DNA from: Flavobacterium aquatile LMG 4008 = ATCC 11947
Lineage (GTDB): Bacteria > Bacteroidota > Bacteroidia > Flavobacteriales > Flavobacteriaceae
Length of the DNA stretch: 64,000 nt
NCBI RefSeq assembly: GCF_000757385.1
Contig: NZ_JRHH01000005.1
Span: 186,001 to 250,000 of the forward strand
Direction: 5' to 3'
The number at the start of each line of letters is the position of its first letter. Position 1 is the stretch's first letter. Below are positions 1,872-45,590 of the stretch, piece after piece. A model generated the notes under the pieces. The model saw nothing but the letters and a program-made list of their open reading frames with translations, had not been told where the DNA came from and did not search any database. Both the position numbers and the translations under genes were made by a program.

Positions 1872-1973
1872 ATTATTTAGATTTCTCAAATTTGTTTAAT
1901 CTGTGTTCAAATAAAATCCGCGAGAATCCGCGTTTTCACGAAGTGAATCCGTTTCATCCGCGTCTCAAAAATC
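1872..1973. repeat. Intergenic simple repeat with repeated tccgcg words
   Basis: The spacer between the GH92 gene and the nitrilase carries the word tccgcg three times (aaaatccgcg, gaatccgcg, catccgcg) plus an 'atctgtgtt' word that recurs at about 43603 upstream of rng. This looks like one of the short dispersed intergenic repeats of Flavobacteriaceae rather than a regulatory site. No hairpin with a T-run is obvious, so the GH92 gene has no clear terminator here. Confidence 0.5.
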
Positions 1974-2738
1974 ATGAAAATAGCCTTAATCCAAACCGAA
2001 TTATCATGGGAAAATCCCAATGAAAACAAAGCTTTACTTCAAGAAAAGATAAATGCTATTTCGCAATATGTCGATTTGATTGTTTTGCCCGAAATGTTTA
2101 CATCCGGATTTACAATGAATCCGAGAAATGTAGCACAAACCATGCAAGGCGATGCTATTTCTTGGCTAAAAGAAACTGCAAAAGATAAAAATTGTGCCAT
2201 CACAGGAAGTTTGGTAATCGAAGAAAATGGCAATTATTGCAATAGATTGGTTTTTGTTTTTCCTAATGGAGAAATTCAAACGTATGACAAACGACATCTG
2301 TTTACTTTAGCTGGAGAAGATAAAGTTTACACCGCTGGAAAAGATAAATTGATAGTCGATTATAAAGGATTCAAAATCTGTCCACTTATTTGCTACGATT
2401 TGCGTTTTCCTGTTTTTGCAAGAAATGTTGAAGATTATGATGTGTTGATTTATGTTGCCAATTGGCCAAAACCACGAGTAAATGCTTGGGATATTTTGCT
2501 AAAAGCACGTGCCGTAGAAAACATGAGCTACGTAATTGGTGTCAACAGAATAGGATTTGACGAAAATAATCACGAATATGTTGGTCATTCGCAAGCAGTT
2601 GATTTTCTTGGTAATTACATTCAAGAACCACAAGAAATAGAAGGTTTTTTCATAGTAGAATTAGATAAAAATGAACTAATAGAAACCAGAGAAAAACTAA
2701 ATTTTCTGACTGACAGAGATGAGTTTCAAATAAAATAA
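1974..2738 (+). CDS. Omega-amidase / nitrilase-superfamily amidohydrolase (YafV-like)
   Basis: A 254-residue carbon-nitrogen hydrolase with the full catalytic triad: Glu40 (VLPEMFTSGF), Lys106 (YDKRHLF) and Cys140 (LICYDLRFP). The signature words LPEMFTSGF, YDKRHLF, CYDLRFP and YVANWP closely match the YafV/Nit2 omega-amidase group, which hydrolyses 2-oxoglutaramate and 2-oxosuccinamate and so repairs the products of glutamine or asparagine transamination, or acts in methionine salvage. Length is normal for the family and there is no signal peptide, so it is cytoplasmic. It stands alone between the GH92 gene and a convergent lipoprotein gene. The exact substrate is inferred from family resemblance. 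Confidence 0.88.
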   Translation: MKIALIQTELSWENPNENKALLQEKINAISQYVDLIVLPEMFTSGFTMNPRNVAQTMQGDAISWLKETAKDKNCAITGSLVIEENGNYCNRLVFVFPNGEIQTYDKRHLFTLAGEDKVYTAGKDKLIVDYKGFKICPLICYDLRFPVFARNVEDYDVLIYVANWPKPRVNAWDILLKARAVENMSYVIGVNRIGFDENNHEYVGHSQAVDFLGNYIQEPQEIEGFFIVELDKNELIETREKLNFLTDRDEFQIK

Positions 2739-2777
2739 AACATTCGATACCTCGTAATTCGTAATTCGTACTTTTTA

Positions 2778-4385
2778 TTATTTCCCAACATTAAACGGTT
2801 GCTCGACATCCCAATTTTCATTGACTCGTACACCTTCTGGAAAGTAAATAACTTCTTCACTTTGCCGTTGGTCTAAATAACTTCCTGGTGTCCATAATCC
2901 GTCGTTATTGGTGTCGTAAATTGCTCTTATCGTAAAAACATTTGCTTCTAGTAGATTGAACTCAACTGTGTTTCCTTTAGAATTATCAGTTCTAATTTCA
3001 GATGCTAAGACTTTTCCGTCTTTGTCGGTAAGTTCAATAATTACAGGATAGCGTTTTACATTTTCAAGAATAACTCTTAAATTCCCATAATTTGAGGTAT
3101 TTCGTGTGTCAAGTCTATAATTTAATGTATCGTTTTGTTTATCATAGAAATCAGTTAAAGCTCCGGGTAAAAGCTGAATTGAATATTTTTCTAACGGTTG
3201 TTTTTCGAAATCAAATACTATTTGCTGATTAAAATCATCATAAGATGTTGTAAATGAAACTAATGTGGAATCTTTTCTAATGAGTTTTATTTTAGAATTA
3301 TCAATCTTTTCAATCGGAATTGTCGTATTAATTTTGAATTTTTCTCTAAAAGGTAAATTTCCACTCTTCTCAGCCGAAAAACTTAACGTGTCTTTTTTCT
3401 GATCTTTTAATTTTAAAACAAAACTTTGATTGAATTTATCTTTAGATACCGCAACAGTAATAGAATCATTTTTCATTGGTTTGAACCAAATTTGTAAGGA
3501 ATCTTTCTTTGGAAGTTTAGAAATTTTAAATGGAAGTACTTCCTCTCCTTTTTTTAATTCAAATTTTACGTCTTTAGGAATTCCTTCATAACCTATTACG
3601 GCTCTATTTCCTGATGCTAAGCTAGGTTTGAAAGCTTTAAATGCGATAATTTCTTTAAAAAGATTTATTTCAAAAATTGTATCGTTTGGCAAAGTAATAA
3701 AGTCTTTTTTGAACCCAATTTTATCTGTTTTTGGATCAAATTTATTGTTGTTATTTTTATCTTGAATAGCAACTAATCGGTATTTTCCTTGTTTTAAATT
3801 TTCTAATTTAACTAGTTTCAAACTGTCGAGAGAATTGGTAATGTATCTTGGAGTTTCTTTGTAAATTGTTGAATCTGTGTATTTTTCATTCACCTCATAC
3901 AACATAAATGATACAAAATTTGGAGATTTTTGCTCAATCGCATCTTTAAAAGTAGCACTCAAAGCCAGTGAATCAATATAAGTTCCAGTAGAAAAAACAT
4001 ATTTAAATTGTGGTAAAATATTACCTTCATTATTGTCTTGAATGCTTTGACCAAAATTTAAACTGTAAGTTGTATTTTTCTGCAATGTATCTTTAAATTT
4101 TACAATTATGAATTTACTCGCATTGTAAGGCAAAACTTCTGGAGCTTTTGACATTGGAGGCGAAACAATTAGCTGCTTTCCAACGTTTTTAAGTTTTACA
4201 TATTCGTCAAAATAAAGTTTTATTTCGGTTCCTTTAAAGTTTACTGTTCCGTTTTCGGGTGAACTAAATCGTAATTCTGGTGCCAAAGTATCTTTTGCTC
4301 CGCCAGTGATTGTGCCTCTTTTTGCACAGCCAATAGTAGCAATTGCCAGTAAAATAAGACAGTATTTTGAAAAACGCTTCAACAT
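2778..4385 (-). CDS. Ig-like (Big_5) domain lipoprotein
   Basis: 535 residues. The N-terminus is a lipoprotein signal peptide with lipobox TIG-Cys20. An SbsA-type Ig-like (Big_5) domain follows (LRFSSPENGTVNFKGTEIKL, LNFGQSIQDNNEGN), then several beta-rich segments without catalytic motifs. This architecture is a conserved cell-envelope lipoprotein of Bacteroidota, often with Asp-rich turns such as DKNNNNKFDPKTDKIG (residues about 205-222) and DTNNDGLWTPG near the C-terminus, which resemble calcium-binding or prealbumin-like loops. No function is established from sequence. It is convergent with the nitrilase gene and followed on the same strand by nothing obvious. Its 82-bp upstream gap separates it from comF. 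Confidence 0.75.
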   Translation of the reverse strand: MLKRFSKYCLILLAIATIGCAKRGTITGGAKDTLAPELRFSSPENGTVNFKGTEIKLYFDEYVKLKNVGKQLIVSPPMSKAPEVLPYNASKFIIVKFKDTLQKNTTYSLNFGQSIQDNNEGNILPQFKYVFSTGTYIDSLALSATFKDAIEQKSPNFVSFMLYEVNEKYTDSTIYKETPRYITNSLDSLKLVKLENLKQGKYRLVAIQDKNNNNKFDPKTDKIGFKKDFITLPNDTIFEINLFKEIIAFKAFKPSLASGNRAVIGYEGIPKDVKFELKKGEEVLPFKISKLPKKDSLQIWFKPMKNDSITVAVSKDKFNQSFVLKLKDQKKDTLSFSAEKSGNLPFREKFKINTTIPIEKIDNSKIKLIRKDSTLVSFTTSYDDFNQQIVFDFEKQPLEKYSIQLLPGALTDFYDKQNDTLNYRLDTRNTSNYGNLRVILENVKRYPVIIELTDKDGKVLASEIRTDNSKGNTVEFNLLEANVFTIRAIYDTNNDGLWTPGSYLDQRQSEEVIYFPEGVRVNENWDVEQPFNVGK

Positions 4386-4467
4386 TAATATAGATTTTAA
4401 CTACCGCAAAATAACAATTATATTTAGTGTAAACGAAATCTTTTTATTTATAATTAACTAAAAAACG

Positions 4468-5148
4468 TTACTGTGTCATTGCCATACAAACAATACTGAT
4501 TTTGGCACCAGGAATTTTTAGCAATTCTCTACTACAAGCCTCGAGTGTTGAGCCAGTTGTAATCACATCATCAATCAATAAAAAATTTTTGTTATGATGA
4601 TTTTCATCAAATTTTACTCCAAAAACACTCTCAATAACAGTACTTCTGCCAAGAATTGATTTTGTAGTTTGCGTTTTTGAATATACATTTCTAATTAAAA
4701 TAGAATCATTATATTTAACGTTTAAAGTTTGAGATAACGATTCTCCAAATGTAGTAACCTGGTTATAACCTCTTTCTTTTAATCGTTTTTCGTGAAGTGG
4801 AACTGGAATTATGAAATCTACGTTACTAATTTCAATACATTTTTTGAGTTCTTCTGCATACCAATATCCAATTGCTGATCCAATTTCTTGATGGCCTTTG
4901 TATTTTAATTTATGAATCATCTCTTGAACAATTCCTTTTTTGTGAAAATAGAAGAATGCTGAAGCAAATTCAATCGGAATTCGACCGTAAAACTTGCTGT
5001 AAGCCTCATTATTTTTTATCTTATAATGATTGGTAAGCGGAATTTCATGTCGGCATTCGGTACAAATTACATATTCATTTTTTAATAAAAACGAATTACA
5101 ACCTGCACAAGATTTTGGAAAAAATAAATTTAGTAGACTTTGAAACAT
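4468..5148 (-). CDS. comF: ComF family phosphoribosyltransferase-like protein
   Basis: An N-terminal zinc-ribbon (Cys-x2-Cys ... Cys-x2-Cys; PKSCAGC and ICTEC) is followed by a PRPP-binding motif (LLIDDVITTGST) typical of the type I phosphoribosyltransferase fold. ComF is needed for uptake or handling of transforming DNA in naturally competent bacteria, and acts in the cytoplasm near PriA; in other bacteria its role is unclear. I choose the ATG at 5148 (MFQSLLNLFFPKSCAGC) because it gives the usual N-terminus; an ATG 18 bases upstream is possible. 226 residues, normal length. It is divergent from glyS across a 230-bp spacer. Confidence 0.85.
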   Translation of the reverse strand: MFQSLLNLFFPKSCAGCNSFLLKNEYVICTECRHEIPLTNHYKIKNNEAYSKFYGRIPIEFASAFFYFHKKGIVQEMIHKLKYKGHQEIGSAIGYWYAEELKKCIEISNVDFIIPVPLHEKRLKERGYNQVTTFGESLSQTLNVKYNDSILIRNVYSKTQTTKSILGRSTVIESVFGVKFDENHHNKNFLLIDDVITTGSTLEACSRELLKIPGAKISIVCMAMTQ

Positions 5149-5366
5149 ATGTAGGGATTTCAACAAAATGGACTTATAAATCTATATTTTATTGGTACTA
5201 CAATTTTGTAGAATGTTTACGACAAAGATTCTTTTAACAAGCATAATACTCGATGAAGTGCTTGATTTTTATAAATTTATGATTTTTATAATTTTCAACT
5301 ATCGCTTTAATTGACATAAAACAAAAAAATGTTTCATTCAAAAAATGTTAATTGGCACAGTTTTTA
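5149..5366. other. comF-glyS divergent spacer with a small palindrome
   Basis: The spacer contains an inverted repeat CTACAA-tt-TTGTAG at 5198-5211. No open frame or RNA gene was recognised. The palindrome could be an operator for either divergent gene, but nothing supports a specific regulator. Confidence 0.3.
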
Positions 5367-5374
5367 TATTTTTG
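5367..5374 (+). promoter_or_regulatory. -7 box of glyS (TATTTTTG)
   Basis: An exact match to the Bacteroidota -7 consensus TAnnTTTG ends 7 bases before the glyS ATG at 5382, which predicts a leaderless or nearly leaderless mRNA. No clear TTTG -33 element at the usual 17-23 base spacing. Confidence 0.6.
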
Positions 5375-5381
5375 CATCATT

Positions 5382-6926
5382 ATGGCAAAACAAGAAGATA
5401 ATTTTAAGAATGTAATTTCGCATGCAAAAGAATACGGATTTATTTTTCCGTCTAGTGAAATTTACGATGGTTTAAGTGCGGTTTACGATTACGCACAAAA
5501 TGGAGTAGAATTAAAGAAAAACATTCGCGAATATTGGTGGAAATCAATGGTTCAGATGAACGACAATATTGTTGGGCTCGATGCCGCAATTTTAATGCAT
5601 CCAACAACTTGGAAAGCTTCGGGTCACGTTGATGCCTTTAATGACCCATTAATTGATAATAAAGATTCTAAAAAAAGATATAGAGCTGATGTTTTGGTAG
5701 AAGATTATGCCGAAAAATTGAATCTGAAAGCCAAAAAAGAAATTGAAAAAGCGAGTGTTCGTTTTGGAGATGCTTTCAATGAGCAAGAATTTATCACCAC
5801 CAACACTAGAGTTGTAGAATATTTAGCCAAAGAGAAAGAAATTAGAGAGCGTTTAGGTCGTTCTTTAGGAAATGGAGATTTGGCCGACGTGAAAGCGTTA
5901 ATTGAAGAATTAGAAATTGCCGATCCTGAAACTGGTTCTAGAAATTGGACCGATGTGAAGCAATTTAATCTAATGTTCGGAACAAAATTGGGTGCTTCTG
6001 CAGAAAGTGCGATGGATTTATACCTTCGTCCAGAAACGGCTCAAGGAATCTTTGTGAATTTCTTGAATGTTCAAAAATCGGGTAGGATGAAAATTCCGTT
6101 TGGAATTGCTCAAACTGGTAAAGCCTTTAGAAATGAGATTGTTGCACGACAGTTTATTTTCCGTATGCGTGAATTTGAACAAATGGAAATGCAATTTTTT
6201 GTAAAACCAGGTGATGAAATGAGATGGTACGAACATTGGAAAACCACTCGTTTAAACTGGCATTTATCACTTGGTTTAGGAAAAGAAAATTACCGTTTTC
6301 ATGATCATGATAAATTAGCTCATTATGCTAATGCTGCAGCAGATATCGAATTTAATTTTCCATTCGGATTTAAAGAATTGGAAGGAATTCACTCGCGAAC
6401 GGATTTCGATTTAAAAGCACACGAACAATTTTCTGGTAAAAAATTACAGTATTTTGATACCGATGAAAATAAAAATTATGTTCCATACGTAGTAGAAACA
6501 TCTGTTGGATTAGACCGAATGTTTTTAGCCGTTTTTGCTACTTCATTAAAAGAAGAAACGCTTGAAGATGGCTCTACACGAACAGTTTTAAGTTTACCAT
6601 CAGTTTTAGCTCCAACTAAAGCGGCAGTTTTACCATTAGTTAAAAAAGATGGATTGCCAGATGTTGCTCATAAAATAATTGAAGATTTAAAGTGGGATTT
6701 CAACGTTGCTTACGACGAAAAAGATGCTGTAGGAAGACGTTACCGTCGTCAAGATGCGCTTGGAACGCCATTTTGTATAACGGTTGACCATCAAACGCTA
6801 GAAGACGAAACAGTAACCATTCGTCATAGAGATACAATGAAACAAGATCGAGTGAAAATTTCTGAATTACGCTCAATCATCAACGAAGAAGTTTCAATGA
6901 GAAATTGGTTGATGAAAACAATCTAG
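5382..6926 (+). CDS. glyS: Glycyl-tRNA synthetase (class II, homodimeric)
   Basis: 514 residues. Class II aminoacyl-tRNA synthetase core with the GlyRS motif LRPETAQGIFVNFLNV, motif 2 around FRNEIVARQFIFRMREFEQMEMQ, motif 3 SVGLDRMFLAVF and a C-terminal anticodon-binding domain (VLPLVKKDG ... YRRQDALGTPFC). Charges tRNA-Gly in the cytoplasm. This is the eukaryote/archaea-like alpha2 type, usual in Bacteroidota; the symbol glyQS is also used. I choose ATG 5382 (MAKQEDNFKN) over an upstream in-frame codon at 5352, which would lie before the -7 box. Ends at a strong bidirectional terminator shared with the convergent beta-barrel gene. Confidence 0.96.
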   Translation: MAKQEDNFKNVISHAKEYGFIFPSSEIYDGLSAVYDYAQNGVELKKNIREYWWKSMVQMNDNIVGLDAAILMHPTTWKASGHVDAFNDPLIDNKDSKKRYRADVLVEDYAEKLNLKAKKEIEKASVRFGDAFNEQEFITTNTRVVEYLAKEKEIRERLGRSLGNGDLADVKALIEELEIADPETGSRNWTDVKQFNLMFGTKLGASAESAMDLYLRPETAQGIFVNFLNVQKSGRMKIPFGIAQTGKAFRNEIVARQFIFRMREFEQMEMQFFVKPGDEMRWYEHWKTTRLNWHLSLGLGKENYRFHDHDKLAHYANAAADIEFNFPFGFKELEGIHSRTDFDLKAHEQFSGKKLQYFDTDENKNYVPYVVETSVGLDRMFLAVFATSLKEETLEDGSTRTVLSLPSVLAPTKAAVLPLVKKDGLPDVAHKIIEDLKWDFNVAYDEKDAVGRRYRRQDALGTPFCITVDHQTLEDETVTIRHRDTMKQDRVKISELRSIINEEVSMRNWLMKTI

Positions 6927-6942
6927 TAGTTTTAAAACATAA

Positions 6943-6983
6943 AAAAATCCCATTTTGAAATAAGTCAAAATGGGATTTTCCTT
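6943..6983. terminator. Bidirectional terminator between glyS and the beta-barrel gene
   Basis: Perfect long hairpin AAAATCCCATTTTGA / TCAAAATGGGATTTT with a short loop and flanking A and T runs, so it can end transcription from both sides. Confidence 0.85.
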
Positions 6984-6994
6984 TTACAATTATA

Positions 6995-7534
6995 TTAAAA
7001 GCGGTATCCAACCGTTATTCCTGCTCTTCCTATTAATTCGTAATCTCTGTCGTCATATTGATTATTAAATAAATTTCGACCAACACCAGCATTTATTTCC
7101 AATAACAAACCTTTTTTAGTTACCCATTTTCCACCAAGACCTATTCCCAAAGCAAAATCGGTCAACGTTTTTTGTTCGTAATTATAATCTGAAGCAGTTT
7201 CTTCATAAATGAAATCATCAACGTTATTTAACATACCAAAAGCTTCTCCAAAAAATCCTGCGGCAGTTTTTTTGCCAAAATAATAACGGTAATAACCAGT
7301 TGCAGTATAATTGATATCCCAATTTTCATTGTCAAAAGGAACACCAAGTGAAATTCCTACAGCAGATTCTTCGTTTAAAATTCGTTCATAAGAAACATCA
7401 AAACTTCCTAAAATTAAATAAAGCGCGTTTACTTTAAGTTCATTTTTATTAACAATTGGAGTTGGTTCATTATTTTGACTAAATCCGTTTGTGCAAAATA
7501 AGGATACCACTAAAAGAGTAATTATTTTTTTCAT
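6995..7534 (-). CDS. Outer-membrane beta-barrel protein, DUF3575-like
   Basis: 179 residues from the ATG at 7534, which gives a clean Sec signal peptide (MKKIITLLVVSLFCTNGFSQ, cut after FSQ). An upstream in-frame ATG at 7636 would add a non-signal extension and overlap the ArsR gene, so it is rejected. The mature part resembles DUF3575: LKVNALYLILGSFDVSYERIL at the front, alternating hydrophobic strands, and a C-terminal strand ending in aromatic Phe (GITVGYRF), the outer-membrane beta-barrel signature. Function unknown. It lies 64 bp downstream of the ArsR gene on the same strand and may be co-transcribed with it. Confidence 0.75.
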   Translation of the reverse strand: MKKIITLLVVSLFCTNGFSQNNEPTPIVNKNELKVNALYLILGSFDVSYERILNEESAVGISLGVPFDNENWDINYTATGYYRYYFGKKTAAGFFGEAFGMLNNVDDFIYEETASDYNYEQKTLTDFALGIGLGGKWVTKKGLLLEINAGVGRNLFNNQYDDRDYELIGRAGITVGYRF

Positions 7535-7598
7535 TGTTTTTTTGGGTAAATCTAATTGTTTTTTTAGTTCTGAATATAATATTAACAACAAATTAAAT

Positions 7599-7916
7599 TT
7601 AATCTTCTTTAGGTAAATTAATTTCGGATAAAACAAAATCTTTTACTTTCTCCCAAGTTTTTATATTTAGCGAATAGTAGATGTTATTTCCTTTATTTTT
7701 TCCTTTAATAAGTTTCACTCTTTTCAGCTCAGATAAGTGTTTTGATACTGTAGATTGTGCCAAAGGCAATACTTCAATAATATCACCACATGCTGATGAT
7801 GGAGAATCCATTAAAAACTGGATAATTTTTAGCCTGGCTGGATTTCCTAACGCTTTCAAAATATCTGACATTTCATTGATTTTAAAGGAGAAACCAAATG
7901 TTTTTGTAATTCCCAT
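7599..7916 (-). CDS. ArsR-family winged-helix transcriptional regulator
   Basis: 105 residues with the ArsR HTH core: ALGNPARLKIIQFL, then LPLAQSTVSKHLSELKRVKLI (recognition helix) and a wing KGKNKGNNIYYSL. A single Cys (SACGDII) is present, but not the classic ELCVCDL metal-binding motif, so metal sensing is not supported. The start MGITKTFGF...MSDILKALGNP is typical of flavobacterial members of the family, so the longer start is preferred over the internal Met at 7871. It probably regulates itself and possibly the downstream beta-barrel gene. Opposite strand to the LytTR gene, separated from it by 670 bp. Confidence 0.85.
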   Translation of the reverse strand: MGITKTFGFSFKINEMSDILKALGNPARLKIIQFLMDSPSSACGDIIEVLPLAQSTVSKHLSELKRVKLIKGKNKGNNIYYSLNIKTWEKVKDFVLSEINLPKED

Positions 7917-8586
7917 ATCGCTATATATAATATTATTTTTTTATTATGCCATTCACTGTAAATCTGATGTATTTCTTTAAATCGTAAAGATAAATAGGTT
8001 GGTTTTGAATGAATTTAATTTTGAATACTTTTATAAAAAGTAATACGATTCAAATTTATAAAACATAATTTAAACAATGACTTAGTTTTGGCAAAAAAAT
8101 TTGATAAATTAAAAATACATAAAAACTCTTTAAAGTCCCATATTATCTAGTATATTGACAATTAATACTATTTTACATATCGAAATATTACCATATTTAT
8201 AATTATGCTATAAATGACTCTAAATTATGGCCTTTTTTTAAGCTTTTTCATATTTATTTTTCATAAAGTTCTATTACAATCCTGAATTTTTAAAATAAGA
8301 AAAATTTGAATTATCAAATAGAAAAAATTTCGCACTTTTAAGTAAGAAAAAACTTATATAAAAGTGTTTTTAATCGGCTATTTTTTCCGTTCAACTAAAA
8401 ATCATTCAAAACTATAGTAATCACCTTGTACTACTTTCAAAATAAAAAGCAAAACACTTAATTTAGTAACGTTTTAAAAGCATTATTTTCTAATGTTTTT
8501 TTTAAATAAATTAGCCCCAAGCTACTTTAAATTAACTGGAGATTTTTTTCTCAAAAACTGATGCTTTACCCCGAAAAGTAAGGCAA
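7917..8586. other. 670-bp gene-free AT-rich region with one terminator-like hairpin
   Basis: No convincing coding frame on either strand and no tRNA-like fold. The base composition is more AT-rich than the neighbours. The only strong structure is an imperfect 14-bp hairpin with an A6 loop at 8333-8366 (CACTTTTAAGTAAG against CTTATATAAAAGTG), followed by a short T-run. The space presumably carries the divergent promoters for the ArsR and LytTR genes; a TATCTTTA box reading towards arsR at 7985-7992 is a near match to TAnnTTTG. Confidence 0.5.
8333..8366. terminator. Orphan terminator-like hairpin in gene-free region
   Basis: Imperfect 14-bp stem (12 matching pairs) with a six-A loop, followed on the plus strand by TTTTT. 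No gene reads into it from the plus strand, so it could end a small RNA, or just be a chance structure in AT-rich DNA. Confidence 0.3.
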
Positions 8587-9591
8587 TTGAAGAATTTTAC
8601 GTTTGTAATTATCGATGACGACCATAAAAATAGGTTGAAGACTAAAGCTACGGCCGAAAGTTTTTCAAACCTACATTTTTTGGCTATGGCAGATAATTAT
8701 GATGACGGAATTGACATTGTTTTAGAACACAATCCCGATTTTATCTTCCTAGAAATAGATCCTTTAGAGAAAGAGTCCAATCTTTCATTGGGATTTATCA
8801 ATGAGCTTTATCGTTATCTATCTAAAGTTCCAAAGGTTATCGTAACTACTAAAAACGATGCTCTTTGCTTAAATGCCTTTAAATATGGCGTATTCGACTA
8901 TTTAATCAATCCAATTGAAACAAAAGAAGTACGCAAAACTATTTTTAGATTAGACAGGGAATTACAATCTAATGCTGCGATTCCTTCAAAACCACAGAAT
9001 TCAGTTCAAGTTTCTAATATTAATCCTGTAGAAACTGATAAAAATGATTTGGTTGAAGTAGTTTCGGATGAAATTATAGAAGATTCAATTCCAGAGGATC
9101 TAATTGAAAATGATTTAATTACAGATGAAAATTCAGATGATATCATCGAATCTGAAGAAGTAATTGCTGTAGTTGAAGATAAAAACACAGATGTTGATGA
9201 TAAAGCGGTTACGCTACTTCAAACCGAAAACACTAAGGAAAAACCACTTATTATTTGTGTAAAGTCCTATGGTGATTACCGTTACATCGAAGCAAAAGAC
9301 ATTTGTTACCTTCAAGCAGACAACAATTCTACCGACATTCACCTTAATACTGGCGAAATGATTACGGCATTCAAAACGTTAAAGCATTTTGAAGGATTGT
9401 TGACCTATCCGTTTGTTAGAATTCACAACAGTTACATCGTTAATATTGATTATGTATCTAGAATTCACACTGGTAACGCCGTTTGCCATATTAAAAATAC
9501 CACTACAAAACTTCCGTTTTCTAAATCTTACAAAGAAAACATCGATGCCATAATTGCTACAATTGCATCTGGAAATTACTTGGAAATATAA
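8587..9591 (+). CDS. LytTR-family regulator with degenerate receiver domain
   Basis: 334 residues from a TTG start; the frame has no ATG before it after the stop at 8533. Domains: receiver (1-125), a long acidic linker rich in Asp/Glu/Ser (about 140-215), and a C-terminal LytTR DNA-binding domain (about 222-330; VKSYGDYRYIEAKDICYLQADNNSTDIHL ... FVRIHNSYIVNIDYV). The receiver keeps the acidic pocket (IIDDDH, D10-D12) and Thr (VIVTTKND), but the phospho-acceptor position holds Glu56 (FIFLEIDP instead of FLDI) and the conserved Lys before Pro is Asn (DYLINPI). It therefore looks unable to be phosphorylated normally and may be fixed in an active-like form. No histidine kinase of the LytS type is adjacent. 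It lies upstream of the repeat-peptide gene and palindromes. Confidence 0.85.
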   Translation: MKNFTFVIIDDDHKNRLKTKATAESFSNLHFLAMADNYDDGIDIVLEHNPDFIFLEIDPLEKESNLSLGFINELYRYLSKVPKVIVTTKNDALCLNAFKYGVFDYLINPIETKEVRKTIFRLDRELQSNAAIPSKPQNSVQVSNINPVETDKNDLVEVVSDEIIEDSIPEDLIENDLITDENSDDIIESEEVIAVVEDKNTDVDDKAVTLLQTENTKEKPLIICVKSYGDYRYIEAKDICYLQADNNSTDIHLNTGEMITAFKTLKHFEGLLTYPFVRIHNSYIVNIDYVSRIHTGNAVCHIKNTTTKLPFSKSYKENIDAIIATIASGNYLEI

Positions 9592-9953
9592 TATAGGTGT
9601 TGATATAAATCAGTTCCTATAATCTTCTTTAAATTTGATTTAATCTATATTACATTTGTAATTTTGATTCAAAATTATAATTTAATTAATTGATTATCAA
9701 TTAATTAAATGTTTTATTTCCTTCTAAAAAGCATTCTAAAACCACTAGTTTTTTAAAAACCTCCATTCACCCAGATTTGGCATTCATTCACTATCAAACG
9801 ACGTCATTCTACATTATATAGGAGTAATGATAATAATGGAACTACACTAGCGTAGTACTTTTACGACATGAAAGCCCCAAACAATTGATGTTAAGTCAAT
9901 TGGCTTTAAATATAAAGTCTAACAAAAACATTAAAACATTAAAACTAGAAATC
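9592..9953 (+). promoter_or_regulatory. Palindrome-rich spacer upstream of repeat-peptide gene
   Basis: 362 bases with three inverted repeats: a perfect 14-bp arm palindrome with one central base at 9681-9709; an imperfect 16-bp palindrome ACTACactagcGTAGT at 9841-9856; and a 7-bp hairpin CAATTGA-(7)-TCAATTG at 9882-9902. Just after the second palindrome is TACTTTTA (9857-9864), one base from the -7 consensus TAnnTTTG, which would place the transcript start near 9870 and leave a leader of about 80 bases containing the hairpin. The same TACTTTTACG word precedes the miniprotein gene at 25795. The spacer probably carries the regulated promoter of the peptide gene. Confidence 0.5.
9681..9709. promoter_or_regulatory. 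29-bp near-perfect palindrome, candidate operator
   Basis: Arms TTTAATTAATTGAT and ATCAATTAATTAAA are exact reverse complements with a single T between them. It lies 90 bases after the LytTR gene and about 150 bases before the likely promoter of the repeat peptide. There is no T-run after it, so a terminator is unlikely; an operator for a dimeric regulator is the simplest reading. AT-rich composition makes chance less remote than for a mixed-base palindrome. Confidence 0.45.
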
Positions 9954-10193
9954 ATGAAAAAATCATTAGTAATATTCAGTTTATTCTCTTTGATGATGGT
10001 ATTAACATCTTTTACTGCTCCAACTGAAATTGGAGGAAGAAGTCAAGTTCCATCTTTCGAAATTGGAGGAAGAAGTCAAGTTCCATCATTTGAAATCGGA
10101 GGAAGAAGTCAAGTTCCATCATTTGAAATTGGAGGAAGAAGCCAAGTTCCATCATTTGAAATCGGAGGAAGAAGTCAAGTTCCTACCTTATAA
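9954..10193 (+). CDS. Secreted tandem-repeat peptide precursor (five 11-residue repeats)
   Basis: 79 residues. Residues 1-22 are a Sec signal peptide (MKKSLVIFSLFSLMMVLTSFTA); everything after Thr24 is five consecutive copies of an 11-residue unit EIGGRSQVPSF (units at 10026, 10059, 10092, 10125, 10158; the last ends in PTL). At DNA level the 33-bp units differ by only one to a few, mostly synonymous, bases, so the array is young or homogenised. The ATG at 9954 is chosen because it starts the signal peptide; an ATG at 9885 would add 23 unsuitable residues. I do not recognise the family. One Arg per unit gives regular protease sites, so it may be cut into 11-mers; a repeat adhesin or amyloid-like role is also possible. 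Its own terminator follows, then a TPR kinase. Confidence 0.8.
   Translation: MKKSLVIFSLFSLMMVLTSFTAPTEIGGRSQVPSFEIGGRSQVPSFEIGGRSQVPSFEIGGRSQVPSFEIGGRSQVPTL
10026..10190 (+). repeat. Five tandem 33-bp coding repeats
   Basis: Exact period 33 bp, in frame, inside the secreted peptide gene. Between units the only changes are at few positions (for example att/atc for Ile, agt/agc for Ser, tct/tca for Ser), plus the diverged final two codons of unit five. Confidence 0.95.
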
Positions 10194-10227
10194 GAAATAG
10201 TAAATTATTTACACTCATAAATAATAA

Positions 10228-10262
10228 AAGAACTGTCAAATTGTTGGCAGTTCTTTTTTTTT
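10228..10262 (+). terminator. Terminator of the repeat-peptide gene
   Basis: A 12-bp stem AAGAACTGTCAA / TTGGCAGTTCTT (one G-T pair) with a four-base loop and a long T-run. It isolates the peptide transcript from the kinase gene 30 bases downstream. Confidence 0.9.
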
Positions 10263-10291
10263 GTACTTTCGTTTTTTTAACCCCATAAAAA

Positions 10292-12337
10292 TTGAAATAT
10301 TTTACATTACTAATATTTTCATTAATCCTTTTTTCTTGTTCAAAAGAAAAGAAGAAAGTCACTATTAATAAAGGTCAAGATTCTGCAAAAATCTTTTTTA
10401 ATCGATACAAAAGTAATCAAGATAAAAATGTTTTAGGAAACGAGACTAATCTTGATAAATCGTTTAGTTTATTAAAAGATCAGAACAATGAATTATCTAC
10501 ACGAAATTTGCTATCAAATATTGTTGTTGAATTTTACACAAACAACAATGATGAAAAATTGAATAAGTCGTCAAGACTTTTACTTCAATTATCATTGGAT
10601 AGTAATGACTCCATAAATCTTGGTATGGCTTATAGATCAAGAGGAAATTATTACTTTAAAATTCAGAAGCTTGATAGTTCCTATTATTGCTATGTTCAAG
10701 CAGAAAAAATTTATGATAATTTGAAAGATGATAAAAATTATTCAAACATTTTAATGAATAAAGGTATTATTCAATATTCTATTGGTGATTATTTGGGTGC
10801 TGAATTATCATTAAACAAAGCAAATACTTTATTTAAGAAAGCAAATAATTACAATAAGATCTATGGATCACTTGATCAATTAGGTTTGGTCGCTACCGAA
10901 TTAAAGGAATATGATAAAGCATTTTTTTATTTTAATAAAGCTTTAGAAGCAATTAATAATTTACCTCTTGAAGAGGATAAAATATATTACACAACTATTT
11001 GTAAAAACAATATTGGATATTTATATCTTAAATCAAGAGAATATAAAAAAGCTGTCTATTACTTTGAGGAAGCATTGCAGAATAAGCTTATTAAAAATGA
11101 TGACCCTTTACTGTATTCTAATTTAATAGATAATTTAGCGTATTGTAGACTTAAATCTAATAGTTTAAAAAATCTACCAAATTTATTTTTTGAAGCTTTA
11201 AAGATTAGAGAAAATTTGGATGATTACACTGTGGTTGTTGGAAGTTATATCCACCTTTCTGAATATTATTTTTATAAGAATGATTTGAAAAATGCCATTT
11301 TATTTTCAAAAAAAGCGATTGAAATTTCTAAAAAATCGAAAATACCTTCAAATTTAGTTTTAGCTTTAAAACAAGCATCATTTATAGACAAAATTAATGC
11401 TTCTAAATATACTGAAGAATACATAAGGATTTCCGACAGTCTTCAAATTGTAGAAAGAAACTCCAAAGATCGATTTGCACGTATTCAATTAGAAACAGAT
11501 GAACTTCGTGAAGAGAATTTTAATTTATTAGAAAAGAATAGAAACATTCTCAACTACTTTTTTGGTACTGTACTCTTTATTGGCGTCCTGTTCTTTATTC
11601 GTACCCAACGTTCACGTGCTCGTGTATTGGCACTCAAGCAAGCCCAGCAACAAGCCAATGAAGAAATTTATAGGTTAATTATCTCGCACCAAAACCAACT
11701 AGAACTTGGTAAAGACTTAGAGAAAAAGCGATTGTCTAAAGAATTGCACGATGGTGTTTTGGGAAGATTATTTGGTTTAAGATTAAGTCTTGATGGGTTA
11801 AATAGTTTTGATGATGAACAAGCCAAGAAAGAACGATTGGAATATTTGAATGAACTTCAATTAATAGAACAAGACCTTCGCGAAATATCGCATGAATTAA
11901 ATAGAGAAACTTCGTTGCTTATCAACAACTTTGTAGCAATCATCAATAGCTTAATAGAGCAACAAGCCAAAGTAAATAATGCAAACATAAAAGTTATAAT
12001 CGAAGAAACTATTGATTGGGATAAAATTTCTAATATTATAAAAATCAATTTATATCGAATTCTTCAAGAAGCATTACAAAATATAAATAAACATGCTTTG
12101 GCTAAAAATGTATCAGTTCACTTTAGAAAAGATACTAAAGAAAATTTATTATTTAACATTGAAGATGACGGAAAAGGGTTTGATACTAACATCAAGAAAA
12201 ACAAAGGGATAGGAACCAAGAACATGGTTTCTAGAGTACATCAATGCAATGGGTCAATTGATATAAAATCGGAAATCGGTAAAGGTTCCAAAATAATTAT
12301 TATCTTTCCACTTGAAAATTCAAACTTTAAAGTATAA
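10292..12337 (+). CDS. TPR-sensor histidine kinase with lipoprotein-type signal (HisKA_3)
   Basis: 681 residues from a TTG start that gives a lipoprotein signal peptide (MKYFTLLIFSLILFSC, lipobox LFS-Cys16). Then tetratricopeptide-like repeats (about 60-390), one membrane segment (about 420-442, FFGTVLFIGVLFFI), a coiled-coil, a HisKA_3 dimerisation domain with phospho-acceptor His486 (KELHDGVLGRL) and a HATPase_c domain (N-box LQEALQNINKHA, DDGKGFD, KGIGTKNM). This is the NarX/DesK-like class that pairs with NarL-type regulators; the regulator gene starts 6 bases after its stop. The TPR region is outside the inner membrane and could bind peptide or protein. A TACTTTCG word at 10264-10271 is a possible -7 box. 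Co-location with the repeat-peptide gene suggests, but does not prove, that the peptide is its ligand or output. Confidence 0.9.
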   Translation: MKYFTLLIFSLILFSCSKEKKKVTINKGQDSAKIFFNRYKSNQDKNVLGNETNLDKSFSLLKDQNNELSTRNLLSNIVVEFYTNNNDEKLNKSSRLLLQLSLDSNDSINLGMAYRSRGNYYFKIQKLDSSYYCYVQAEKIYDNLKDDKNYSNILMNKGIIQYSIGDYLGAELSLNKANTLFKKANNYNKIYGSLDQLGLVATELKEYDKAFFYFNKALEAINNLPLEEDKIYYTTICKNNIGYLYLKSREYKKAVYYFEEALQNKLIKNDDPLLYSNLIDNLAYCRLKSNSLKNLPNLFFEALKIRENLDDYTVVVGSYIHLSEYYFYKNDLKNAILFSKKAIEISKKSKIPSNLVLALKQASFIDKINASKYTEEYIRISDSLQIVERNSKDRFARIQLETDELREENFNLLEKNRNILNYFFGTVLFIGVLFFIRTQRSRARVLALKQAQQQANEEIYRLIISHQNQLELGKDLEKKRLSKELHDGVLGRLFGLRLSLDGLNSFDDEQAKKERLEYLNELQLIEQDLREISHELNRETSLLINNFVAIINSLIEQQAKVNNANIKVIIEETIDWDKISNIIKINLYRILQEALQNINKHALAKNVSVHFRKDTKENLLFNIEDDGKGFDTNIKKNKGIGTKNMVSRVHQCNGSIDIKSEIGKGSKIIIIFPLENSNFKV

Positions 12338-12343
12338 CGTATT

Positions 12344-13018
12344 ATGTCCCAAAACATTAATATTTTAATTGTAGATGATCATCCTTTTATTATTATTGGC
12401 TACCAAAATGCCATCACAAGATTTCCTAATAAAAAGTATTCTTTTACAATTACAAAAGCCAGCGATTGCAAAACTGGTTATGAAGCCATAATGAATCCCG
12501 AAGGAACTGTTTTTGATATTGCCCTACTCGATATCAGTATGCCAGTTTATGAGGAAAAAAACATTCAAACTGGTGAAGACTTAGCCAAACTTCTCAAGCA
12601 AGTTTCTCCAGATTGTAAAACGGTGTTACTCACAATGCACTCAGAAGGTTTAAAAGTTCAAAAAGTTATTGAAGAAATTGATCCACTTGGATTAGTTATA
12701 AAAAATGACTTAACCTACGATAATATGATTTTGGCTTTGACTACAATTTTAAAAGGCGAGCAATATTATAGCGAATCGGTGATAAATTATCTCAACCAAA
12801 TGCAAAAAGAAAAAGTGTATGTTGATGTTTTTGATAAAAAAATTCTACACTATTTAAACAAAGGAATTATTGCAGACGATGTGGCACTTTACATTCCGCT
12901 TTCATCAGCCTCGGTAAGAACAAGAGTAGAAAATATGAAAGAGCTTATTGGTAAAAAAGGTTGCACCAACGAAGAATTAATTAAGGAAGCCAAAGAAAAT
13001 GGCATGATGTTAAAATAA
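12344..13018 (+). CDS. NarL/LuxR-like response regulator, partner of the TPR kinase
   Basis: 224 residues. Canonical receiver: D11-D12 acidic pair, phospho-acceptor Asp63 (IALLDISMP), Thr (VLLTMHSE) and Lys (LVIKND). The C-terminal part (about 155-224; FDKKILHYLNKGIIADDVALYI...SSASVRTRVENM) corresponds to a LuxR-type helix-turn-helix but is divergent from the standard LTxRE...SxxTVxxH pattern. It lies 6 bases behind the kinase gene, so the two form one transcription unit and a two-component pair. Unlike the LytTR protein upstream, its receiver is intact. Targets are unknown; the palindromic spacer at 9.6-9.9 kb is a candidate. Confidence 0.88.
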   Translation: MSQNINILIVDDHPFIIIGYQNAITRFPNKKYSFTITKASDCKTGYEAIMNPEGTVFDIALLDISMPVYEEKNIQTGEDLAKLLKQVSPDCKTVLLTMHSEGLKVQKVIEEIDPLGLVIKNDLTYDNMILALTTILKGEQYYSESVINYLNQMQKEKVYVDVFDKKILHYLNKGIIADDVALYIPLSSASVRTRVENMKELIGKKGCTNEELIKEAKENGMMLK

Positions 13019-13020
13019 AA

Positions 13021-13056
13021 AAAATCCTCTTGAATGATAAATTTAAGAGGATTTTT
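13021..13056. terminator. Bidirectional terminator between response regulator and thiL
   Basis: Stem AAAATCCTCTT / AAGAGGATTTT with a 13-base loop; A-run on one side and T-run on the other, serving both convergent genes. Confidence 0.8.
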
Positions 13057-13064
13057 TAGTTTTT

Positions 13065-14111
13065 CTATTCTTCCAAAGCATTCCATCCACGAGCTTTCAA
13101 CGGAATTTTAGTATTTGCTCGAGTTATCAAATGGGTTCCTTCGCTTTCGCCAACCATATGTCCGATTACGGTAAAATTTGGATTGGCTTTTATTTTGTCA
13201 AAATCTTCCATAGCGATCGTAAACAATAATTCGTAATCTTCACCACCATTGATTGCAACAGTTGTCGAATCGATATTGAATTCCTCACATACATTTATAA
13301 ACTGTGGATCAACTGGAATTTTCTCTTCATATAAATTACAACCCACTTTTGATTGTTTACAAGTATGAATAATTTCAGATGATAATCCGTCCGAAATATC
13401 AATCATTGAAGTTGGTTTTACTTCCAATTTCGACAACAATTCTTTAATATCATGACGCGCTTCTGGACGTAATTGTCTTTCTATCAAATAAGTATACGCA
13501 TCCAAATCGGGTTGGTTATTTGGGTTAACCTGAAACACTTGTTTTTCACGTTCCAAAACTTGCAATCCCATATATGCCGAACCCACATCGCCAGAAACAA
13601 CTAATAAATCTCCTTCTTTTGCGCCACTTCTATATACAATTTCGTCTTCGTTTGCTTCACCAATTGCGGTGATCGAAATTATCAAACCTTTTTGTGATGA
13701 AGTCGTGTCTCCGCCAATAACATCAACATTGTAAAATTTAGATGCTAGTGAAATTCCGTCAAATAATTCTTCCAATGCTTCCAACGGAAAACGATTAGAA
13801 ACTGCCACCGAAACCGTAATTTGAGTCGCTTTGGCATTCATTGCGCAAATATCAGAAATATTCACAACAACCGCTTTGTAACCCAAATGGCGTAATGGCA
13901 TGTAAGCCAAGTCAAAATGTACACCTTCAATCAATAAATCTGTTGAAATAACTACTTTTTTGTCTTTAAAATCTAAAACTGCGGCATCGTCACCAATACT
14001 CTTTAAAGTTGAAGCATTTTTAACGTCAAAATTTTTCGTCAAATGATCAATCAATCCAAATTCGCCCAATTGCGAAAGTGATGTTCGTTGCGGATTTTTA
14101 TCTTCTATCAT
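13065..14111 (-). CDS. thiL: Thiamine-monophosphate kinase
   Basis: 348 residues. Phosphorylates thiamine monophosphate to the diphosphate cofactor, the last step of thiamine pyrophosphate biosynthesis, in the cytoplasm. PurM/ThiL (AIRS-related) fold: SIGDDAAVLDF near residue 41 with metal-binding Asp residues, STDLLIEGVHFDL, GGDTTSS, and a C-terminal MIDISDGLSSEI and NGGEDYELLF. Length is normal. The start follows an exact -7 box by four bases with a TTTG -33 element 20 bases further upstream, so the mRNA is probably leaderless and there is no room for a TPP riboswitch. No other thiamine gene is adjacent. Confidence 0.95.
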   Translation of the reverse strand: MIEDKNPQRTSLSQLGEFGLIDHLTKNFDVKNASTLKSIGDDAAVLDFKDKKVVISTDLLIEGVHFDLAYMPLRHLGYKAVVVNISDICAMNAKATQITVSVAVSNRFPLEALEELFDGISLASKFYNVDVIGGDTTSSQKGLIISITAIGEANEDEIVYRSGAKEGDLLVVSGDVGSAYMGLQVLEREKQVFQVNPNNQPDLDAYTYLIERQLRPEARHDIKELLSKLEVKPTSMIDISDGLSSEIIHTCKQSKVGCNLYEEKIPVDPQFINVCEEFNIDSTTVAINGGEDYELLFTIAMEDFDKIKANPNFTVIGHMVGESEGTHLITRANTKIPLKARGWNALEE

Positions 14112-14115
14112 TTTG

Positions 14116-14147
14116 CAAAGGTACGAAGGATTTTTGTTTAAGGCAAA
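14116..14147 (-). promoter_or_regulatory. thiL promoter (TTTG-N20-TACCTTTG), leaderless
   Basis: -7 box TACCTTTG at 14116-14123 and -33 TTTG at 14144-14147, both read on the minus strand with a 20-base spacer. The box ends four bases before the ATG, so transcription should start at or within a base or two of the start codon. Confidence 0.7.
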
Positions 14148-14224
14148 GACAAGAATTCCTGAAGTTTTTTAATTAAATCAAATTTAAAATTTCCTACTGA
14201 CAAACTGTTGTCATAAACCGTATT

Positions 14225-14232
14225 TAAATTTG
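14225..14232 (+). promoter_or_regulatory. -7 box of the DinB-family gene (TAAATTTG)
   Basis: Exact TAnnTTTG match 25 bases before the ATG at 14258. Confidence 0.55.
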
Positions 14233-14257
14233 TAGTATAAACTTAAAAAACTATATT

Positions 14258-14740
14258 ATGAACACTACAGCAACAGCTCAAGTAATTAGCAAAGAGGATT
14301 TATTAAACCATTGGCAAGGTCACCGAAATTTAACGCGCCGAGTAATTGAAGCTTTTCCTGAAAAAGATTTTTTCGAATTTTCCATTGGCGGTATGCGACC
14401 TTTTTCTAAATTAGTAACAGAACTATTATCTATTGGCGCACCAGCTTTAAAAGCAATTGTAAACAGAGATGCAAAACCTTATTCAGAAGACATTGGTGAA
14501 TTAAAAACCAAAGCAGACTTTTTACAAAAATGGGATGAAGCGACAGTTGAAATTAATTCGTATTGGAATCAAATTTCTATTGAAGATTTTAGTGAAAACT
14601 TTAATCTTTTCGGACAATATGAATTTCCAATCATTCAGAATATTTTATATTTTGTTGATAATGAAATTCATCATAGAGGTCAAGGATATGTGTACTTGCG
14701 TGCTTTAGGAATTGAACCGCCATTTTTTTGGGAACGATAA
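14258..14740 (+). CDS. DinB-family putative metal-dependent enzyme
   Basis: 160 residues of the DinB/YfiT four-helix bundle fold. The likely metal-binding histidines are at the front (LLNHWQGHRNLTRRV) and near the end (NEIHHRGQGYVYLRALGIEPPFFWER), matching the family's spaced His triad. DinB-like proteins include thiol-dependent transferases and detoxification enzymes; the exact reaction is not predictable. No signal peptide, so cytoplasmic. An NTF2-like protein follows 37 bases later on the same strand, probably in one transcript. Confidence 0.82.
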   Translation: MNTTATAQVISKEDLLNHWQGHRNLTRRVIEAFPEKDFFEFSIGGMRPFSKLVTELLSIGAPALKAIVNRDAKPYSEDIGELKTKADFLQKWDEATVEINSYWNQISIEDFSENFNLFGQYEFPIIQNILYFVDNEIHHRGQGYVYLRALGIEPPFFWER

Positions 14741-14777
14741 AAATGTAACAATACAATTCTAATTGAAAGATCAGATT

Positions 14778-15146
14778 ATGACTAATAAACAGCAAATTGA
14801 ATTAGTAATGACAGCCTTTGTTAAAGCCGGAGATAACAGCGATATCAATCTTTTGGATGTTGTTTTGCACGAGGACTTTCGAGTAACTAGCAACCGATTT
14901 ATGGGAACTTCGGGCGTTACTGTTATTGATAAAAAACAGTATATCGCCAACGTTAGAAAAGGTGTTTTTGGTGGAATTCCTCGAAAAATGAAAATAGAAA
15001 GTATTAATTATTGTGAATCAATTGCCAATGTAACTCTTCGTTTAGAAAGTGCCGAAAATCATTTTGTTTCCTATAATTCTTTGTTTTTGGATTTTGATAA
15101 CAGATGGAAATTAATACATAATCTTGCTGTTGTTAATGCAAAATAA
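14778..15146 (+). CDS. NTF2-like small protein (lumazine-binding-like, SnoaL fold)
   Basis: 122 residues from the ATG at 14778 (MTNKQQIELVMTAFVKAGDNSD); a TTG five codons upstream is less likely. It fits the nuclear transport factor 2 fold: N-terminal helices, ...LHEDFRVTSNRFMG..., then strands ending in YNSLFLDFDNRWKLIHNLAVVNA. Members bind small hydrophobic ligands or act as enzymes or isomerases; no catalytic residues can be named here. Probably co-transcribed with the preceding DinB-family gene. A bidirectional terminator follows. Confidence 0.7.
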   Translation: MTNKQQIELVMTAFVKAGDNSDINLLDVVLHEDFRVTSNRFMGTSGVTVIDKKQYIANVRKGVFGGIPRKMKIESINYCESIANVTLRLESAENHFVSYNSLFLDFDNRWKLIHNLAVVNAK

Positions 15147-45261: not shown

Positions 45262-45265
45262 AAAC

Positions 45266-45301
45266 AAACCGTTATTCTTAATTGAGTAGCGGTTTTTTTT
45301 A
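45266..45301 (+). terminator. rng terminator, copy 1
   Basis: Stem AAACCGTTA / TAGCGGTTT with one G-T pair and T8; first of three in tandem. Confidence 0.8.
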
Positions 45302-45410
45302 TACCTGAAGTCCACTGGACTTCCTCCTCTTAATATCAAATCTCGTGACGCTTACACGTACCTTGAATATCATTTTTATGATAAACAAGGAAAAGAAATT
45401 AAATAAAAAC

Positions 45411-45446
45411 AAACCGTTATTCTTAATTGAGTAACGGTTTTTTTTA
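45411..45446 (+). terminator. rng terminator, copy 2
   Basis: Same hairpin 145 bp later, here with a fully paired stem AAACCGTTA / TAACGGTTT. Confidence 0.8.
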
Positions 45447-45555
45447 TACCTGAAGTCCACTGGACTTTCTCCTCTTAATATCAAATCTCGTGACGCTTAC
45501 ACGTACCTTGAATATCATTTTTATGACAAACAAGGAAAAGAAATTAAATAAAAAC

Positions 45556-45590
45556 AAACCGCCTTTCGTGAGATAGGCGGTTTTTTTGTG
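45556..45590 (+). terminator. rng terminator, copy 3 (distinct sequence)
   Basis: Stem AAACCGCCT / AGGCGGTTT and T7. Being different from the other two while sharing the flank, it is probably the original rng terminator that preceded the duplications. Confidence 0.8.

Follow-up and report, generated by a model that had tools for sequence, protein, structure and literature searches.

A gene of short tandem repeats in Flavobacterium aquatile LMG 4008 is predicted to encode a multi-copy, pheromone-like precursor which probably supplies a short secreted signalling peptide to its receptor, the TPR sensor histidine kinase encoded directly downstream. The gene lies in a stretch of 64,000 nucleotides of contig NZ_JRHH01000005.1, referred to here as the window. 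A multi-core precursor read by an adjacent kinase with an extracytoplasmic TPR domain was the main idea of the original prediction made for this DNA, and it gained support from synteny, from conservation confined to the cores, and from co-variation of the cores with the TPR sensor and not with the kinase part; operator-like repeats and a terminator were also found. Because of this co-variation, peptide and kinase are considered very likely to be paired, while release in the form of short peptides is likely and signalling between cells is somewhat favoured.

The repeat gene and its neighbours

The ORF at 9954-10193 (forward strand), recognised by ORF reading and a tandem-repeat scan, encodes a precursor of 79 amino acids which consists of MKKSLVIFSLFSLMMVLTSFTAPT followed by four copies of EIGGRSQVPSF and one of EIGGRSQVPTL; the repeats and the Sec-type leader were as originally predicted. 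At the DNA level, TRF reported a 33-bp unit in 4.8 copies with 93% matches (score 283, the second-highest in the window). Elsewhere in the window the tandem-repeat scan revealed a 145-bp repeat at 45197-45561 (2.5 copies, 98%) and, near it, a 21-bp repeat array at 45923-46063. The conserved leader, MKKSLVIFSLFSLMMVLTSFTAP (9954-10022, forward strand), was read as a signal peptide, and its residues T18-S19-F20 were invariant in an alignment of 18 rows; throughout, secretion signals, lipoboxes and membrane segments were assigned by visual inspection or with a rough hydropathy rule. The precursor had a single match in its own genome at E<=10, and no match of weight, nor any to a RiPP family, in Pfam (best E 0.11) or NCBIfam (best E 0.028), and no family reached its gathering threshold in an Rfam scan of positions 8500-13100. 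A search of phage records with the repeat region gave one weak match, to a hypothetical protein of Shewanella phage 1/44 (KJ018213, 37266-37427), a phage present as two records.

The order of genes on the forward strand, namely LytTR regulator, peptide, TPR kinase and NarL-like regulator, agreed with that first proposed. The LytTR-type regulator (8587-9591; Pfam LytTR, 1e-16, with Response_reg just below its cut-off) has a degenerate receiver with Glu at the phospho-acceptor position (FLEID). Among 106 homologues this position was occupied by E (82), N (15), G (3), D (3), H (2) or C (1), a pseudo-receiver with a residue other than Asp thus being present in 103 of them. Conservation of the LytTR neighbour, to which the original prediction attached weight, held in part: a receiver was common (in the available DNA of 49 of the 61 peptide loci described below) but was not always adjacent, lying about 4 kb away in some. 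The NarL-like partner response regulator (12344-13018, forward strand) has the phospho-Asp, which was kept in 123/123 homologues; it is NarL-like over its length (Response_reg, with MctR/NarL/RcsB-type models below their cut-offs) and no separate HTH family was reported by the Pfam scan.

LytTR proteins bind direct repeats with a spacing of about 21 bp. An operator-like block was identified on the forward strand at 9764-9820, where three direct repeats (CATTCAC, CATTCAC and CATTCTAC) start at 9764, 9785 and 9805, about 21 bp apart, and its anchor motif (<=3 mismatches), lying between -133 and -172 relative to the ATG, was present in 60 of the 61 loci. In its own genome the central motif of the operator had one exact match, and four more with 3 mismatches compared to eight in a reversed-pattern control. 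Spaced repeats were also seen upstream of more distant peptides in the genus set (18/37), and in none of the family set (0/28). A Bacteroidetes-type promoter pattern (TTTG ... TAnnTTTG) was found upstream of 0/61 peptide genes. The strong terminator that had been predicted after the peptide gene was borne out, an intrinsic terminator being located between the peptide and kinase genes at 10227-10260 (forward strand; a terminator-like hairpin at 10227-10256 plus a T run), and such a hairpin was present in the peptide-kinase gap of 56/56 loci compared to a mean of 1.8 of 56 after block-shuffling.

The window genes scanned on either side (204-15143) belong to ordinary housekeeping or metabolic families, the 10 flanking families being GH92, nitrilase-type, Big_5, phosphoribosyltransferase, class II tRNA synthetase, DUF3575, ArsR, AIRS/ThiL-type, DinB and lumazine-binding. 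This bears on the suggestion that the product is a secreted, bacteriocin-like antimicrobial peptide that induces its own gene by way of the neighbouring kinase, in the manner of two-component-regulated bacteriocins. Exported small repeats, an adjoining sensor kinase and rapid diversification would suit such a peptide, but no immunity, export or maturation family was present among the 10 flanking genes, no RiPP-type maturation enzyme was found among the window genes scanned, the precursor matches no RiPP family as stated above, and the cores (9-16 residues as delimited by script) are small and polar, all of which makes an antimicrobial role very unlikely.

Cores and spacers of the peptide family

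In a species-level collection 15 relatives were identified, most with a nearly identical leader and with repeats that were mostly different. Peptide sequence alone (E<=0.001) matched 78 of the 398 genomes searched across the genus, its own genome among them, at one place per genome save for one genome with two, and most of them have a repeat of their own. The 61 loci, each with a distinct peptide, are the window and the best 60 of the 78 non-own places in the genus. Cores among the relatives include IGGRSSQGE, IGGRKDVDTGN, TGGNKTIGE, IGGNRPVGE, SGGKKPVVGE and IGGNGGNETRK. Copy number (by exact 5-mer) was 3 to 6 in 54/56 genes, and so varies, a point raised by the original prediction. At L014:6001-6483 a single precursor has two unit types, EIDPPTAPGQTAPVEQIIP and IGGQSAPRS, possibly giving two signals per gene. 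When 299 family genomes were searched with a peptide profile, the matches were to the own genome, to one other of the genus and, weakly and in the leader only, to one outside the genus; peptide sequence alone therefore misses the wider system, for which the kinase is needed as query.

The limits of the cores were placed by a script counting from the stop codon, and the division into core and spacer leans on that rule. The last copy was shorter than the repeat period in 46/56 genes (the window included), and thus ended at the stop codon without a spacer, while it equalled the shortest period in 6/56 and was longer in 4/56. Spacers between copies ranged from 0 to 11 residues and in many genes varied in both length and sequence; a spacer of 20 residues in L073 contains a degenerate copy. 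With one vote per gene, the first spacer residue was F, Y, L or I in 36/51, the residue preceding the core was E in 30/52 and the core began with I in 40/52. For the window the script returned a core of 10 residues, IGGRSQVP(S/T)(F/L), with E as spacer; a core of IGGRSQVPS/T with the spacer FE is favoured here, by analogy with L047 (IGGRSQDPS/T) and given the mostly hydrophobic first spacer residue. Boundaries drawn in this way from the relatives would place four copies of IGGRSQVPS at 10029-10055, 10062-10088, 10095-10121 and 10128-10154, and a fifth, IGGRSQVPT, at 10161-10187, all on the forward strand.

Cleavage at Arg, as first proposed, is not supported, since 16 of 56 ten-residue cores have no Arg; at the unit boundaries the core is usually preceded by Glu and followed by a residue that is hydrophobic in most genes. 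The proposed 11-mer phase is likewise not supported, and cutting before hydrophobic residues would fit the spacers.

When copies were compared within genes, 5074 comparisons of core codons gave 1255 silent differences and 222 that change the amino acid (pN/pS 0.06), and 495 comparisons in spacers of equal length gave 71 silent differences and 93 that change the amino acid (pN/pS 0.37), the comparisons not being independent in either case. With a pS of 0.32 between core copies and the low pN/pS, the copies are not simply fresh slippage products and the core amino acids are held alike. This argues against a repeat protein of the surface, adhesive or amyloid-like kind whose units were made uniform by slippage and which has the kinase next to it by chance, for which the 33-bp tandem repeats with their 93% matches and the glycine in the units could otherwise be cited.

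Probable pairing of the peptide with the kinase

The kinase gene (10292-12337, forward strand, TTG start) encodes a TPR sensor histidine kinase with matches to TPR_12 (3e-17), HisKA_3 and HATPase_c and an N-terminus that is lipobox-like by reading. The TPR sensor domain (residues 27-365; 10370-11386) is taken as periplasmic on account of its position between the N-terminal signal and a membrane segment, read at about residues 422-436 (11555-11599), and the HisKA_3/HATPase_c module follows at 11699-12316, with VraS and DesK as PDB relatives (all forward strand). An AlphaFold model (mean pLDDT 85, pTM 0.59, 55 sequences) has helical TPR hairpins at residues 27-365 and a long helix at 370-503 which runs through the membrane segment. 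The closest structure to the TPR fold was the eukaryotic LGN (Z 29.8), followed by NprR (26.6), RapI (25.9), Rap with CSF (24.9) and NprR with NprX (24.8), and RapI and RapF were also matched by sequence profile; as TPR folds are widely alike, the likeness to NprR and Rap backs peptide binding in general, not kinship.

The kinase was found directly downstream of the peptide gene, on the same strand, in 56 of the 61 peptide loci (gap 62-252 nt, median 97), and the remaining five peptide genes lie at a contig edge, with 0 to 305 nt of sequence after them. Homologues lacking the kinase, which the original prediction had named as evidence against itself, were therefore not encountered away from contig edges, and synteny in 56/56 loci where the contig continues is not what a structural protein beside a chance neighbour would lead one to expect. 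The peptide loci gave another 36 kinase rows, among which a peptide was present only beside that of L084, which is the peptide-linked kinase itself. Tandem paralogous kinases occurred without the peptide, some with other secreted proteins upstream. At L047, L091, L093 and L100 a second TPR kinase is preceded by a different secreted protein of ~120 aa, perhaps another type of ligand.

The converse was assessed at 69 kinase loci, of which 40 were from the genus, mainly from peptide-negative genomes (hand-picked, better-ranked peptide-negative loci first, then lower-ranked and paralogous ones), and 29 were from the family, 28 of them one per other genus; the 69 count one locus twice (genome G059, L168 and L179). 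A small secreted ORF (<=140 aa) ended <=450 nt upstream of the kinase homologue in 64/69, compared to 6/69 on the opposite strand and 178/1380 random same-strand windows. No such ORF was present at four of the 69 (L139, L173, L175 and L193), and the fifth counted without one, L147, has a repeat precursor of 154 residues; at L195 the script scored an overlapping ORF in the wrong frame, and a repeat precursor of 130 residues is present there. Many of the upstream ORFs are distant versions of the peptide: some have arrays, for example LVGTQSTGGNKKVD, and others two copies or just a single unit at the C-terminus. The homologues with a single unit (e.g. L145, L169) also speak against the surface or amyloid-like repeat protein. 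Unrelated tandem arrays were found in other genera at L195, L203 and L207. Units of the CxxC type were seen in three genera (L187, CDTCHNERDDR; L194, CNDCERGDMDR; L207, CDDCAHDSDDRE repeated), for which disulfide or metal-bound forms are possible. A class-wide kinase search (E<=1e-50, with the best few candidates per genome scored) identified 7 of 247 genomes, own included, all of the same family.

In its own genome the kinase profile matched 13 stretches, read as 11 genes, and three kinases, namely those of the window, C5:592k and C2:423k, are immediately preceded by a small secreted ORF of this style. At C5:592k (L213/L215) a lipoprotein-like ORF ends in DGDTLPGEPIPPKGKD and is preceded by a LytTR-like ORF, and at C2:423k (L216) a small lipoprotein-like ORF directly upstream of a TPR kinase ends in LPSDTGGQNGQLPPPPPNPRP; these two pairs are probably parallel channels. 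A fourth candidate, L218, was rejected, the 48-residue ORF upstream of it being judged spurious.

Mean identity among the kinases was 38% in the sensor part and 62% in the kinase part. Co-variation was analysed without L058, L062, L064 and L104, which have a short or broken kinase sequence, using cores of ten residues anchored at xGG; tests with ThiL were possible for 38 of the 56 loci, a further 14 having no usable ThiL. Core distance was correlated with sensor distance (rho 0.29), and remained so after kinase, ThiL and regulator distances were removed (rho 0.25, p 0.0005, n=38). The correlations of core with kinase (0.09) and with ThiL (0.16) were weak alone and gone once the sensor was accounted for, and there was no correlation with the leader of the same ORF (-0.002). 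With n=52 loci, core against sensor given kinase gave rho 0.22 (Hamming 0.27; p 0.0005), with p about 0.015 on permuting only within leader classes. Permutation within kinase clusters gave rho 0.36 (p 0.0046, or p 0.033 after dropping 4 near-identical loci), although in these close-kinase clusters the core tracked kinase identity (0.324) about as well as it did the sensor (0.362). Overall, the co-variation is modest in size (rho 0.2-0.3).

In sliding windows the signal fell in the TPR region, with a peak at residues 142-181 and none at the membrane segment; weak values were obtained at a few kinase windows, and some kinase sites were also associated. Site by site, association was stronger at sensor than at kinase positions (p 3e-5). 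Preselected canonical positions of the TPR groove were weakly enriched against other sensor sites (p 0.022 or 0.062), with p 0.13 or 0.19 against other helix-A sites.

Among pairs with a kinase identity of >=0.85 (34 genomes), sensor identity was 0.78 where the cores were alike at >=5 of 7 residues (n=14), 0.58 at 3-4 of 7 (n=6) and 0.46 at <=2 of 7 (n=42). L100 and L093 share 95% of the kinase and 39% of the sensor and have unlike cores, while L097 and L098 (kinase 100%, sensor 75%) differ by one core residue in all four copies, and L055 and L050 have a core in common with 54% identity in the sensor and just 55% in the kinase. For the window, the nearest sensor is that of L047 (0.64, core IGGRSQDP; kinase 0.55) and the nearest kinase that of L056 (0.78; sensor 0.38, core unlike). 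Eight pairs were profiled at the DNA level, and in 5/5 pairs with unlike cores an identity trough extended from the core array to about +1500 (0.42-0.66, compared to 0.66-0.91 in front of the gene and 0.66-0.96 past about +1600), while pairs with like cores had a shallower dip or none. As judged from these comparisons, the core and the predicted periplasmic TPR domain change together, and neither the leader nor the kinase changes with them.

A purely structural or amyloid protein, which the original prediction had offered as an alternative, leaves unexplained why the core should co-vary with the sensor when it shows no such link to the leader of its own ORF, and with the evidence above it is scarcely credible. 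The evidence for pairing would fit equally well with a small protein that acts as a private regulator of the kinase, periplasmic and uncleaved or membrane-tethered, which is multivalent, stays with the cell and reports on export or the state of the envelope, not on neighbours; many leaders outside the genus are lipobox-like (LFSC, by reading) and could provide a tether to the membrane. However, spacers of variable length between near-invariant cores and cassettes private to a lineage are expected of released signals, and there is no obvious reason for a tethered regulator to change repeatedly with its receptor, so that a retained regulator is regarded as possible but unlikely, and a released peptide signal is preferred.

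Known peptide systems and the proposed signalling route

For ComQXPA of Bacillus (ComX pheromone, ComP kinase, ComA regulator), a variable sensor part is described beside a conserved cytoplasmic part, together with pherotype groups (PMC4008528). On the same description, the likeness lies in the order on one strand of a pre-peptide gene, a membrane kinase gene and a LuxR/NarL-type regulator gene, with peptide and sensor variable here too, and the core/sensor variation resembles the ComX-ComP pattern (PMC4008528). The differences are that no isoprenyl transferase (ComQ) gene lies beside the peptide gene here, the neighbours being LytTR and kinase with none in the 10 flanking genes, that ComP senses by a multi-helix membrane domain and not by a TPR domain outside the cytoplasm, and that the present system has a Sec-type leader and multi-copy cores in a Gram-negative member of the Bacteroidota.

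With RRNPP systems (Rap-Phr, NprR-NprX, PlcR-PapR) the locus shares a small exported propeptide gene adjoining a TPR ligand-binding domain, and the TPR superhelix resembles those of NprR and Rap (Z 24-27). In RapF the peptide occupies the channel of the TPR domain, and the terminal carboxylate has to be free (PMC3601957); RRNPP systems are described for Firmicutes (PMC10075063). Their receptors are intracellular and bind imported peptide, whereas here the TPR domain is taken as periplasmic and is fused to a histidine kinase; HisKA_3/HATPase_c follows the TPR domain with a membrane-like segment between, in place of an intracellular regulator or phosphatase.

In agr of staphylococci, a hypervariable cassette of peptide and kinase sensor lies between conserved parts, the LytTR regulator is the phosphorylated partner, and the peptide is a cyclic thiolactone made by AgrB. 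A variable peptide/sensor cassette and a LytTR regulator are thus shared with agr, but the LytTR receiver here has no phospho-Asp, and no AgrB-type processing membrane protein was present among the direct neighbours or the 10 flanking genes of the window. Precursors of the yeast alpha-factor type carry several identical short signals and spacers in one secreted protein, as here, but with eukaryotic processing enzymes and a GPCR receptor. The system is judged to work like a peptide-pheromone two-component system of the ComX-ComP type with a Rap/NprR-like binding domain, and by its defining parts it belongs to neither family.

In the proposed route, the Sec-exported propeptide would be the carrier of five short signals, most likely the 9-mer IGGRSQVPS/T, and the FE spacers would be cut after export to give short peptides with a free C-terminus. 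In the periplasm the released peptides may then be taken up by the TPR superhelix of the neighbouring histidine kinase, and the kinase would in turn control the NarL-like regulator. The LytTR protein, lacking the phospho-Asp, probably drives the peptide gene via the dedicated direct-repeat operator, and the terminator would set the peptide transcript apart from the receptor gene. As lineages differ in their core/TPR cassettes, the signal would be private to a pherotype.

Peptide signalling and pherotype cassettes are well known in Gram-positive bacteria (Firmicutes). No description of such cassettes, or of a peptide/TPR-kinase system, in Bacteroidota was found in a search of published, openly available papers. 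The Flavobacteriaceae may well have their own undescribed class of pherotype system, a suggestion put forward with some reserve, in which propeptides of one to seven cores, exported by Sec or carried on lipoproteins, are read outside the cytoplasm by TPR kinases. The core and the receptor domain would be swapped jointly, as one cassette set between a conserved leader and a conserved kinase, and a genome could hold several channels (three candidate pairs in this one). The candidate ligand-receptor pair was seen at >100 loci, and the predicted peptide can be read from the gene, so that synthetic 9-mers could be tried directly. If the reading is true, dozens of natural core/TPR pairs would be candidate orthogonal sensors, and a function would be suggested for a large group of TPR sensor kinases without known ligands.
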